Virus record (IMG/VR): IMGVR_UViG_3300007754_000342
Coordinates: 1-61,909 of that record
Length of the DNA: 61,909 nucleotides
Source of the DNA: a virus
Strand: one strand, 5' to 3'
Below the pieces are notes generated by a model. The model was not told the DNA's origin. It did no database searches and saw nothing but the letters and a program-made list of their open reading frames with translations. Position 1 is the first letter of the stretch; every line of letters starts with the position of its first letter. Made by a program: the position numbers and the translations under genes. Positions 4,075 to 8,885 of the stretch are shown here, piece after piece.

Positions 4075-4563
4075 ATGGCTGAATTACTCGACCCTTCAGA
4101 AATAATGTTCACTCCGTTTGAACCGAAAACGAAGAACCGTTATATATTATATGTTGAAGGTATACCATCTTATTTGATTAAAACTGCAAACAGACCAAGT
4201 ATAACGTTTGAAGAAGTTGAACTTAATCATATAAATGTAAAAAGATATGTTAAAGGTAAAGGTTCGTGGGAGCCAATTGAAATTACCTTATATGACCCTG
4301 TAGTACCAAGTGGTGCTCAAGCTGTAATGGAATGGGTAAGACTACACAAAGAGTCTGTAACTGGACGTGATGGATATTCTGATTTCTATAAAAAGGATAT
4401 CACAATCAATATGTTAGGGCCAGTTGGTGATAAAATAGAAGAATGGACTCTTAAAGGTGCATTCATTGTTTCAGCGGCTTTCAATGATTTGGATTGGTCT
4501 GCGAGTGACCCAGCCGAAATTACATTGAGTCTACGTTACGATTACGCTATACTACAATTCTAA
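4075..4563 (+). CDS. Tail tube protein (gp19-like)
   Basis: This 162-residue protein matches T4 gp19 (163 residues) in length and pattern: FEPKTKNRYILYVEGIPSYL near the start, then RPSITFEEVELNHINVKRYV, W-P-I-TLYDPVVPSG and a C-terminal SLRYDYAIL. It polymerises into the inner tube through which DNA passes, inside the sheath encoded just upstream. It has a separate promoter-like element and its own terminator, as expected for a very abundant protein. Confidence 0.95.
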   Translation: MAELLDPSEIMFTPFEPKTKNRYILYVEGIPSYLIKTANRPSITFEEVELNHINVKRYVKGKGSWEPIEITLYDPVVPSGAQAVMEWVRLHKESVTGRDGYSDFYKKDITINMLGPVGDKIEEWTLKGAFIVSAAFNDLDWSASDPAEITLSLRYDYAILQF

Positions 4564-4709: not shown

Positions 4710-5480
4710 ATGGCAAAGAAAGAAAAGCCTAAATTTCCAAGTGAAATTGTACCTTTGCCTTCAAAAGGACATTTTTATCCAGAAGGACATCCCTTGACAA
4801 AAGGTGAAGTTGAAGTTAAGTATATGACAGCAAGAGAAGAAGACATCTTAACTTCACAGAATCTTATTAAACAAGGTAAAGTTATTGATGTTTTATTAGA
4901 ATCATTAGTAGTTGGTGACTTTGATATGGATGATATGTTCATTGGAGATAAAAATGCAGTTATGATAGCCGCTCGTATTCTTGGATATGGTAAAGAGTAT
5001 CAATTTGAATTGGATGACCCTGCTACTGGTGAAAAAGAAAAACACATACTTGATTTGACTACACTTGAACATAAAGAAATTGATTTATCAGAAATAGAGA
5101 AAGGTACTAATGAATTTGATTATGAATTACCATTCTCTAAAAAGAAACTCACTTTCAAAATGTTGACACAAGGTGATGAAAAACAAATCGCCGAGGAATT
5201 AAAAGCCTTGAGAAAGGTAACTAAAAAAAGTGGTATCGAATCAGAAGTTACTACACGATTAAAAAAAGTAATTACATCAATAGATGGAGATAGTACTGTC
5301 GGAACTATCAACAACTTTGTTAACAATGAATTTTTATCAAGAGACTCACGAGCATTTCGTGAACATCTCATGTCTGTAACACCTGATGTAGACTTGGATA
5401 TCATTGTTGATTTCACTTCAGGTGAGGAGGTCGAAATCACCGTTCCGATGACGGTGGAGTTTTTTTGGCCTAAGTCCTGA
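4710..5480 (+). CDS. gp26-like baseplate hub / tail assembly chaperone, frame-0 product
   Basis: This 256-residue protein resembles the T4 gp26 baseplate family. The N-terminus is typical (FPSEIVPLPSKGHFYPEGHP, then EVKYMTAREEDILTS), and the rest is helical and acidic. The frame ends VEFFWPKS at a run of seven T (5460-5466). The gene sits between tube and tape measure, where tail assembly chaperones with a frameshifted second product are encoded in many tailed phages. An open frame with a matching extension continues past the T-run (see 5452-5685). The family is fairly sure; the chaperone role is inferred. Confidence 0.82.
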   Translation: MAKKEKPKFPSEIVPLPSKGHFYPEGHPLTKGEVEVKYMTAREEDILTSQNLIKQGKVIDVLLESLVVGDFDMDDMFIGDKNAVMIAARILGYGKEYQFELDDPATGEKEKHILDLTTLEHKEIDLSEIEKGTNEFDYELPFSKKKLTFKMLTQGDEKQIAEELKALRKVTKKSGIESEVTTRLKKVITSIDGDSTVGTINNFVNNEFLSRDSRAFREHLMSVTPDVDLDIIVDFTSGEEVEITVPMTVEFFWPKS

Positions 5481-5685
5481 ACATAAACCCCAGATACACG
5501 AACAAATATTCCAAATAGTATTTCATGGGAAAGGTGGCTTCACTCACGATTCCGTCTATTCCATGCCCACCTATCTTCGTAAATTTTATTTCTTAAAAAT
5601 GCAAGATTTTTATAAGAAAGAAAAAGAACAATACGATAAAGCCAATAAGAAGAGTACAGCTCGACCACCATCATATAAAAAATAA
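5452..5685 (+). CDS. Frameshifted C-terminal extension of the gp26-like protein (no start codon)
   Basis: In the +1 (equivalently -2) frame relative to the upstream gene, an open frame runs from 5452 to a stop at 5683-5685. It encodes about 70 residues after the T-run: GLSPEHKPQIHEQIF, then HGKGGFTHDSVYSMPTYLRK and a Lys/Glu helix. It has no ATG before 5563 and no ribosome site, but its start abuts the seven-T run in codons TTT TTT TGG. A +1 slip of Phe-tRNA from TTT to TTT before the Trp codon, or a -2 slip, would fuse it. The Met-Pro...Leu-Arg-...-Phe-Tyr pattern resembles extensions of tail chaperones. A sequencing indel in the T-run would give the same picture. Confidence 0.6.
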   Translation, partial: RWSFFGLSPEHKPQIHEQIFQIVFHGKGGFTHDSVYSMPTYLRKFYFLKMQDFYKKEKEQYDKANKKSTARPPSYKK

Positions 5686-5749: not shown

Positions 5750-6238
5750 ATGGAAAAGCTGAATGATATTAAGAAGATAGCTAGAAAATTTATTAACAAT
5801 GCAAAAGTCTATCAGCTCAAAAAGAAGATTCAAATAGTTGCAACAAGTGGTGCATTTATGGAACTATACCACGAAGATTCTGGTAAAAATTATGAAATAT
5901 TTGACCCTAATGATAACCTTGTTGCTGGTGGTGATTATGATTCTGTATTAGAACCTTTTGCAGAATTTAAAGATATGTTACGTTCTCTTAAATTAGAAAA
6001 TATTAAACAATTAAAACCAAGTAGAGTATCAGAACAAAGAGTATTCTATGAAGGTATTATTGATACATTATTTCAAAGAGTTATAGCTGGTGCCAAACCA
6101 AAACAAGTAGTTAAACAAGCTGTTAAAAATCATCCAGAGTTAAGTAAAATGGAAAAAGAAATTGAAAAAGATTTAGAACGATTGAGAAAAGACAGAGATG
6201 ATTTTAGAAAAAAACTTAAAAAAACAGCAATGTGGTAA
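5750..6238 (+). CDS. Hypothetical helical protein between chaperone and tape measure
   Basis: This 162-residue protein has a positively charged N-terminal helix, a short beta segment (KNYEIFDPNDNLVAGGDYDSV) and a long charged C-terminal helix (residues 130-160, EKEIEKDLERLRKDR) that should form a coiled coil. It ends KKTAMW. A TAAGGAG site precedes the ATG. Its place directly before the tape measure suggests an assembly function, but I recognise no family. Confidence 0.72.
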   Translation: MEKLNDIKKIARKFINNAKVYQLKKKIQIVATSGAFMELYHEDSGKNYEIFDPNDNLVAGGDYDSVLEPFAEFKDMLRSLKLENIKQLKPSRVSEQRVFYEGIIDTLFQRVIAGAKPKQVVKQAVKNHPELSKMEKEIEKDLERLRKDRDDFRKKLKKTAMW

Positions 6239-6263: not shown

Positions 6264-8885
6264 GTGGCCAGACCAAAATCAGCAACAGCGGAATTAAAAG
6301 GACTTCAACAAAAGAAGAAATTGTTAGCGGATATTAATAAATCTGAAAAGCTGACTACTGCCCAAAAAAGAGAACAAAAAAAATTAACAAAAGAAATAGG
6401 TGATATAGAAAAGAAGTATGGTAAAGAAGTTGTTACGGCATTTGAAAGACGCGAAAAGATTGTTAAAAACTTAGTTAAAGATAAAAAAGAATCAGTAAAT
6501 CTTGAAAAACAATTAGTAGAATTTGGTAAAACTGCTGTTATTGGTGCTAAAGATTTAGCCTCAATAAGGGGAGTGATAGCGGATACTGCTAAACAAGAGT
6601 TCGACCAGGTTACAGACATTTCTGGTATAATGTTAGAGAATTTAGATACCGCTCGAGATTTAAATACCGCACAATTAGCCATTGGTACTAATATGTATGA
6701 CCAATTGGATATTGGGAGTCAACTGGGTGCTACCGAGAAAAAAATAGCCGAAGAAAGATTAAAATTGATGTCTGGTCAACATGATTTATCAGAAGACCAA
6801 GTTGATTTGGCTCTTGAAGCACTTGATATAGCCGAACAAGACTTAGAAACTCAGAAAAAAATACATAAATGGCAAACCGCACAAAATGACGCTCAAAAGA
6901 ACCTTGGGAAAGGTATGAACGATATAAAAGACCAAGCTCAAGCGTTTGGTGCTCAAATAATGGCTATAGCGACAAACCCAATGGTTGCTATTGGAGCGGC
7001 CGCTGTAATGGTTGGAAAAGCATTATACGACACATTCCAAGGAGCAATGGCCCTTAAAACCGAGTTAGGTATTAGTGACGAAGCGGCTATGGGTCTTCAA
7101 ATGAATATCGCAGAAACTGCTAGAGCGTTTAAGATGGCTGGAGTCGAGTCTGCGGATGTAAAAGATGCGGCCATGGGATTAATGAATAATTTCGGTGGAA
7201 TTAATGCAGTAACACCAGAATTGTTAGGTGGTATGGCTCAAATGAAAGCGGAATTAGGAGTTAGTGGTACTGCTGCCGCGAACTTAATGGTAGCGATGAA
7301 AGCAACAGGGGCCGCGTCACAAGAAGCCGCATTTGAAATGGCTAAGAGTGTCGGTCACTTAGCTCAAGCGGAAGGTGTTGCACCAGGTCAAGTAATGCAA
7401 GATTTAGCTAACAATACTGAAGCTTTCGCTTCATTCGCTAAAGATGGTGGTATGAATGTTGCTAAAGCGGCTATTCAAGCAAAGAAACTTGGTATTAATT
7501 TTGATACATCGGTTAAGATAGCAGATAATCTATTAAATTTCGAATCAAGTATACAACAACAAATGGAAGCAGAGATTCTACTTGGTAAACAATTGAATCT
7601 CGATAAAGCTCGTCAATTAGCTCTTGCTGGTGATATAGAAGGTTTACAAAAAGAAGTATTAAAAAATGTAGGTTCTGAAGCAGAGTTTAATAATATGAAC
7701 GTTCTTCAAAGAAGGGCGTTAGCTCAATCTATTGGGGTTAGTGTTACTGAATTATCTAAGATGGTTGCTAATCAAGCTAATATTAATTCACAGACAAAGA
7801 CACAAGAGAAGTTTACTAATCTTATGGCTGCCGCAATGAAAGAAATAAGAAATCTCGGTGAAGATTTGTTAAAGATATGGCAATTAATAAAACCAATTAT
7901 TATGGTTGCATTAATACCAATTGGTGCGGCTGTTTGGGCGGTAATTAAACTTGTTGCTTTATTAGCCGAAGGTCTTAGTATACTCAATGAATGGACAGAT
8001 GGTGGAGTTACAGCGTTTTTAGGTGGTTTAGGTGCTATATTTCTGTTGACTAAGTTGATTGGTAAGACGAGTATTAAGAATGCTATAACGGAACGAATTG
8101 AGAAAATGAAAACTTGGGCCATGGAGAAGAAAAATTTAATATTTAAACAAGCTATGGACAAGGGTGGTTCTTCACCAACCACCGATACAGGTACAAAAGG
8201 TGACCCACTCGGATTTGTAAAGAAAATTAAACCAAAGAAGATATTAGCGGGGGCGGCCGCGATGTTGATTGTATCCGCCGCACTATTTGTTACAGCTAAA
8301 GCTCTACAAGAGTTTGGAAGTGTAGAGTGGAGTTCATTAGCTAAGGCTGGTGTTGCTTTACTCGGATTAGTAATAGTATTAGCCGCGATTGGAGCTATAA
8401 TGATGAGTGGTGTTGGTGCTGTCGCTATTCTTGCAGGAGCCGCGGCCATGTTGGTTATTGCGGCATCATTACTTGTATTAGGACATGCTATACAAGCCAT
8501 AGGAACTGGTTTCGGAATCTTAGCAGAAGGTATAAGTTCATTTACACCATTACTAACTACATTAGTTCCGTTAGCAGGTGGTATATTTATTTTAGCTGGA
8601 GCGTTTGGAGCGTTAGGAATTGGAATGGGTGCGTTAGCCATTGGAGCTCTTGCATTACTACCAGCTTTACCTGTATTGATGGCATTATCGGGAATTGGAA
8701 TGTTAGGTATGGCGTTAGCAGGTGGGGGAGAAGAAACAGGTCCAGAACCACCACCAATTACTGATATGGGAGTTACAAATGATAAGTTGGATGGTGTTAT
8801 ATCCGCTATAGGACAATTACAAGCAGATAATAGAGTATTAATGGAACAATTAAATAATAAAGTTAAGAATTTAGGTACTGAATAA
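6264..8885 (+). CDS. Tail tape measure protein (gp29-like position)
   Basis: The 873-residue product has the composition of a tape measure. Its first 120 residues are Lys/Glu coiled coil, followed by long Ala/Gly/Met-rich helices. Hydrophobic segments lie around residues 235-255, 545-600 and 655-810, as in proteins that enter the host membrane during DNA injection. The start is a GTG with AAGGA 7 bases upstream; no ATG is nearby. It follows the chaperone-like genes and precedes baseplate genes. T4 gp29 is about 590 residues, so the tail may be longer. Function is assigned by composition and gene order, not motif. Confidence 0.8.
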   Translation: MARPKSATAELKGLQQKKKLLADINKSEKLTTAQKREQKKLTKEIGDIEKKYGKEVVTAFERREKIVKNLVKDKKESVNLEKQLVEFGKTAVIGAKDLASIRGVIADTAKQEFDQVTDISGIMLENLDTARDLNTAQLAIGTNMYDQLDIGSQLGATEKKIAEERLKLMSGQHDLSEDQVDLALEALDIAEQDLETQKKIHKWQTAQNDAQKNLGKGMNDIKDQAQAFGAQIMAIATNPMVAIGAAAVMVGKALYDTFQGAMALKTELGISDEAAMGLQMNIAETARAFKMAGVESADVKDAAMGLMNNFGGINAVTPELLGGMAQMKAELGVSGTAAANLMVAMKATGAASQEAAFEMAKSVGHLAQAEGVAPGQVMQDLANNTEAFASFAKDGGMNVAKAAIQAKKLGINFDTSVKIADNLLNFESSIQQQMEAEILLGKQLNLDKARQLALAGDIEGLQKEVLKNVGSEAEFNNMNVLQRRALAQSIGVSVTELSKMVANQANINSQTKTQEKFTNLMAAAMKEIRNLGEDLLKIWQLIKPIIMVALIPIGAAVWAVIKLVALLAEGLSILNEWTDGGVTAFLGGLGAIFLLTKLIGKTSIKNAITERIEKMKTWAMEKKNLIFKQAMDKGGSSPTTDTGTKGDPLGFVKKIKPKKILAGAAAMLIVSAALFVTAKALQEFGSVEWSSLAKAGVALLGLVIVLAAIGAIMMSGVGAVAILAGAAAMLVIAASLLVLGHAIQAIGTGFGILAEGISSFTPLLTTLVPLAGGIFILAGAFGALGIGMGALAIGALALLPALPVLMALSGIGMLGMALAGGGEETGPEPPPITDMGVTNDKLDGVISAIGQLQADNRVLMEQLNNKVKNLGTE

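Follow-up and report, generated by a model that had tools for sequence, protein, structure and literature searches.

A probable programmed +1 frameshift in the gp26-like tail assembly chaperone gene of a virus with a T4-type contractile tail

The analysed stretch of DNA, referred to here as the window, is the 61,909-nucleotide IMG/VR virus record IMGVR_UViG_3300007754_000342. It contains a group of tail genes in which a candidate tail assembly chaperone gene sits between a tube gene (4075-4563) and a probable tape measure gene (6264-8885). The features of this region are as follows:

4075..4563, plus strand: tail tube gene (gp19-like), immediately upstream of the gp26-like gene; PF06841 at E=1.4e-7, phrog_4542 at E=1.5e-30
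4710..5480, plus strand: gp26-like gene, candidate short tail assembly chaperone (TAC-N), 256 aa; ATG start with an AAGGAG ribosome site upstream
5452..5685, plus strand: extension frame, 77 codons, in phase +1 relative to gp26 (equivalently -2)
5460..5471, plus strand: putative slip site TTT TTT TGG CCT, the T7 run being 5460-5466
5478..5480, plus strand: TGA that ends the short product in the 0 frame, five codons after the P-site codon
5750..6238, plus strand: 162-aa gene separating the extension from the tape measure gene; Pfam and PHROG gave no family with a meaningful score
6264..8885, plus strand: probable tape measure gene, 873 aa, GTG start

Sheath genes (PF04984/PF17482 matches) are also located upstream of the gp26-like gene. 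The tape measure candidate matched no Pfam or PHROG family and was assigned from its position, its length and the hydrophobic stretches in its translation; in Flavobacterium phage immuto, the gene in the corresponding position carries a tail tape measure annotation. An earlier note on this DNA had placed the extension just before the tape measure region. The tape measure does lie downstream, but one gene (5750-6238) intervenes. The contig edge (1-1071) encodes a tail fibre end: collagen-like repeats (GSSGSSG.., GDQGDQG..) come first, and after position 454 there is a protein carrying a Peptidase_S74 endosialidase chaperone domain. The 101-aa open reading frame at 2-307 is no more than a shifted reading of the collagen-like repeats.

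The 3' end of the gp26-like gene reads GTG GAG TTT TTT TGG CCT AAG TCC TGA, which bears out the claim of the earlier note that this frame ends at a run of seven T. The second frame, described there as open from 5452 to 5685 with neither a start codon nor a ribosome site, was likewise confirmed: its earliest ATG, GTG or TTG is the ATG at 5563, 83 nt beyond the gp26 stop, and inspection of the window sequence revealed no recognisable ribosome site ahead of it. The part of this frame that lies past the slip site (5467-5682) encodes 72 residues and is followed by a TAA at 5683-5685. We propose that it forms the C-terminal domain of a predicted long chaperone (TAC-NC).

The gp26-like gene matched phrog_150 (baseplate hub) at E=2.8e-9, while its match to PF12322 was borderline (E=2.5e-5; 24.5 bits against a curated cut-off of 24.5). 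PF12322 covers both T4 gp26 (8.8e-64) and residues 1-201 of T4 gp51 (3.9e-52). A profile of the cyanophage extensions matched the C-terminus of T4 gp51 with an i-E of 2.3e-6, the best of 222 T4 frames. The extension profile from the window's own group fell below significance against the same C-terminus, and a wider extension profile found the cyanophage extensions. Single-sequence hhalign comparisons of T4 gp51 or gp26 with the window family profile gave no significant score, so the link to the T4 proteins is drawn from the Pfam and extension HMMs and not from direct hhalign. As T4 gp51 appears to consist of the PF12322 domain followed by the extension, it looks like the long form carried as a separate gene, which would make the window gene a short/long tail assembly chaperone pair.

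The gp26-like part and the extension were also modelled with AF2, folded separately and unfused. The gp26-like model reached a pLDDT of 89.5, and the extension, which forms three helices, reached 81.6. In a Foldseek search of the PDB, the HK97 tail assembly chaperone 2ob9 ranked top of 350,542 chains for the gp26-like model, at a level that is not significant (E about 1, TM 0.23/0.45). In BFVD, the same model matched T4-like entries named 'baseplate hub assembly protein', as well as the SP-15 baseplate hub subunit at 2.3e-19. The Foldseek search with the extension model returned no significant match. Against Pfam, 12 of 50 extension members showed a weak similarity to DUF6760 (PF20546; best 8e-6). 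Among 392 bacterial genomes from a single phylum, DUF6760 matched once (L326:1501-1653, with a TAG inside), beside sheath- and tube-like genes; contractile injection systems may therefore carry the same domain.

Both parts were searched for with tblastn in a set of 35 IMG/VR loci. The extension was present in every locus that reached it (46-100% identical), in phase +1 throughout and with TTT TTT TGG CCT ahead each time. Profile searches for a wider set gave 228 loci with a complete gp26-like gene. The extension was recognisable in 225 of these, and two of the three loci that lack it end directly after gp26. Its phase was +1 in 207 loci and -1 in the other 18, so that homologues largely keep the relative frame, a check that the earlier note had proposed; an in-frame fusion to the gp26-like gene was found in none of the 225. 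The isolates with a +1-phase extension are Flavobacterium phage immuto (TTT CTT TGG CCT), Microcystis phage Mel-JY01 (TTT TTT TGG CCT), Bacillus phage SP-15 (TTT TTT CAC), Listeria phage LIS04 (TTT TTT AGT) and Streptococcus phage GXN1 (TTC TTT CGT). Mel-JY01 is a complete isolate genome with the arrangement of the window, and immuto and SP-15 are complete, with variant sites.

The slippery site, TTT TTT TGG CCT or a near variant, was conserved in nearly all loci, L223 and L224 being without a convincing one. The exact TTT TTT TGG CCT occurred in 62 of 86 non-redundant loci, and TTT CTT TGG CCT in 10 of the 86. In +1-phase loci, the Phe codons of the slip site were TTT in 150 of 151 cases, compared with 77.7% elsewhere in the same genes, a count that ignores relatedness. 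In 94 T-type loci, the 0 frame reaches its stop 4-8 codons after the P-site codon, and in 46 of them a +1-frame stop lies at most four codons 5' of that codon. The +1-frame residues in these loci are unconserved upstream, and from the T-run on, F, F, G and L are nearly invariant; part of this invariance arises because two coding frames overlap there. An SP-15-like subgroup (L231, L233, L237) has lost the T-run and kept AAT CCC AGT, a possible CCC-A +1 site.

The surroundings of the slip site were also examined for stimulatory elements. A downstream RNA structure was not supported, with a mean z of -0.85 against mononucleotide shuffles and a median percentile of 0.49 against segments of the same genes. 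Shine-Dalgarno-like stimulators were not enriched, occurring in 13 of 118 loci compared with 8 of 118 at random positions. The sequence GGTGGAG, located 5' of the window's T-run, was rejected as such a stimulator, as motifs of this kind are not conserved.

Whether the slip is +1 or -2 had been left open earlier. The direction was tested with an explicit re-pairing rule for the P-site tRNA in 120 non-redundant +1-phase loci; +1 re-pairing was possible in all 120 and -2 re-pairing in 109. The 11 loci that disallow -2 have TTC TTT-T, TTC TTT-C, TTT TTA or CCC-A, and include the isolate GXN1. Since +1 fits every locus whereas these 11 exclude -2, +1 is favoured, and a +1 slip at UUU-U, CUU-U, UUU-C or CCC-A is the most likely reading of the sequences. 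A shift of -2, in which tRNA-Phe would go back two bases on the T7 and leave a junction of FFF instead of FF, is permitted by the window sequence, and a -2 frameshift is known for the tail chaperones of phage Mu, which counts in its favour; given the 11 loci, we consider it unlikely. According to the summary in PMC10885494, UUU, CUU and CCC, the P-site codons of the favoured +1 sites, have been reported to shift most readily at the +1 site of prfB.

The same variant sites bear on transcription. Transcriptional slippage on the T7 run would produce an mRNA with one U fewer, from which the fusion would be read in frame, and most loci do carry a seven-T homopolymer. However, the same phase is found in loci with no T run longer than four (TTT CTT TGG, TTC TTT CGT) or with CCC-A. 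Polymerase slippage would not explain these loci, which leaves it very unlikely.

It is also highly improbable that the extension is a separate small gene, expressed from the internal ATG at 5563 or by ribosomes re-initiating beyond the gp26 stop. A short gene has indeed been annotated there in cyanophages and in immuto, and LR756511 and Cygsa01 have a TAATG start at the gp26 stop. Together with possibly Atu_ph07, these two are the only homologues (L041, L128, L124) in which the extension may have its own start, through a stop-start overlap, the counter-case named in the earlier note, and all are distant. Against a separate gene, ATG, GTG and TTG are all absent in 44 of the 120 non-redundant loci between the stop that bounds the extension frame upstream and a point 36 nt beyond the stop of gp26. 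If translation began at ATG 5563, the ~32 conserved residues that directly follow the slip would not be made, and nothing would account for the conservation of the slip site.

Beyond the gp26 stop, the extension had a dN/dS of 0.04-0.43 across 16 pairs, comparable to that of gp26 itself (0.02-0.28), which indicates a coding region under purifying selection. Nothing beyond the homopolymer itself speaks for faulty sequencing or assembly, or for a broken gene. This rival is refuted by the selection on the extension and by the recurrence of the arrangement in many independent assemblies and complete isolate genomes, and its probability is negligible; the T-run can be taken as real.

The phase of the extension is not the same in the entire family. 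In L087, L092, L129-L134 and L136, the T-run is replaced by TTC TTC and the extension is in -1 phase (for example, L087:3220-3445 and L092:3220-3480); just upstream stands A AAT TTC, a heptamer that obeys the X XXY YYZ rule. A tree built from 118 gp26-like proteins places these loci in a single clade with full support, inside the +1 clade. All 80 cyanophage-type loci (L126:1971-2869, L244-L323) have T TTT TTC at the gp26 end and the extension in -1, and the same is seen in S-RIM8 and Vibrio phage Bakedbeans. The exception is Synechococcus phage S-SCSM1 (L125:2660-2870), where T TTT TTC is present but the -1 frame stops at once; its gp51-like extension is in the other phase, through an own start, an assembly error or as a real exception.

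Public cyanophage annotations start 'gp51' (baseplate hub assembly catalyst) at an internal codon and thereby miss the fusion. Sullivan et al. 2010 (PMC3037559) reported that cyanophage gp51 lacks some 200 aa present at the N-terminus of T4 gp51. It seems truncated because this short protein is just the extension studied here; it differs from the extension of the window in lying in -1 behind T TTT TTC instead of in +1. For the family as a whole, we lean towards the view that a T4-type branch makes the gp26-family pair by a previously undescribed +1 shift at UUU-U, CUU-U, UUU-C or CCC-A, and that the recoding changed at least once from +1 to -1 (A AAT TTC) in a well-supported clade, besides the -1 shift of cyanophages (T TTT TTC), a possible stop-start overlap in a few members and the T4 duplication (gp26 + gp51).

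In the window, most ribosomes would read TTT TTT TGG CCT AAG TCC TGA and terminate, giving the short form of 256 aa. In a minority, the tRNA-Phe in the P site at 5463-5465 would slip +1 and re-pair at 5464-5466; at UUU-U, its pairing one base downstream would be perfect. The next codon would be GGC at 5467, then CTA AGT CCT GAA.., and the resulting long form of ~324 aa would have the junction ..VEFFGLSPEH... We infer the occurrence of the shift, its efficiency and the roles of both products, the last from the model of gpG and gpGT in lambda, on which the short form would cover the tape measure and the long form would deliver tube subunits to it. Comparison of the sequences makes it very probable that ribosomes advance by one base at the T-run, both in this uncultured virus and in over a hundred different relatives. 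A programmed frameshift at the T-run giving a chaperone pair of the gpG/gpGT type, as the earlier note had suggested, is supported as the best explanation by the conserved frame without a start, the conserved slip site and the position between tube and tape measure. That the shift is +1 and yields the short/long chaperone pair of a T4-type contractile tail is, in our assessment, highly probable. Points against this reading are the lack of a conserved RNA structure downstream and of enriched Shine-Dalgarno-like stimulators, the possible own starts in three distant relatives, the phase of the extension in S-SCSM1, the slip sites of L223 and L224, and the hhalign results.

Forward shifts of this kind have precedents. 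A +1 frameshift is used in the tail chaperones of Listeria phage PSA and Bacillus phage SPP1, and in influenza PA-X at UUU CGU, the core that recurs as the TTT CGT of SP-15-like relatives. At the prfB site (CUU UGA), whose CUU U resembles TTT CTT TGG, the P-site codons are the same and the slip is likewise forward; here, however, there is neither an in-frame stop in the A site nor a conserved Shine-Dalgarno-like spur. A +1 frameshift is also probable in the tail chaperone of haloarchaeal HSTV-2 (PMC5009743). Lambda gpG/gpGT and relatives are -1 frameshift tail chaperones (Xu et al. 2004; reviewed in PMC5009743), whereas the window gene belongs to another protein family by sequence and its shift is +1. 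The same review describes G-T frameshifting as conserved in long-tailed phages 'except T4' (PMC5009743).

According to PMC10885494 and PMC12846349, the T4-like tail assembly chaperones gp26/gp51 were identified by Vladimirov, Gautam and Davidson (Virology 2022, 566:9-15); PMC12846349 also credits that work with -1 slippery sequences of the polyT kind in the TAC-N genes of T4-like phages. The T4 proteins share with the window gene the PF12322 family and the same short/long pair, but in T4 they are encoded by two separate genes on opposite strands, whereas here there is one gene with a +1-phase shift. A gpG/gpGT arrangement had been called unexpected in a T4-type tail; part of this surprise falls away, as T4-like tail assembly chaperones had already been identified. 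As far as the papers citing Vladimirov et al. (2022) convey that work, no description of a +1 class or of a direction switch in T4-type tails was found in the literature examined.

On this reading, the T4-type lineage would have the short/long chaperone made by frameshifting that, according to a major review, T4 lacks. In the gp26-like chaperone family, annotation pipelines drop or split the predicted long form. Naturally occurring putative +1 slip sites of several kinds (UUU-U, CUU-U, UUU-C, CCC-A), without an evident stimulator, are also available in this family, together with a natural switch of direction, which makes the rules for forward slipping and for the conversion between frameshift and gene duplication testable.
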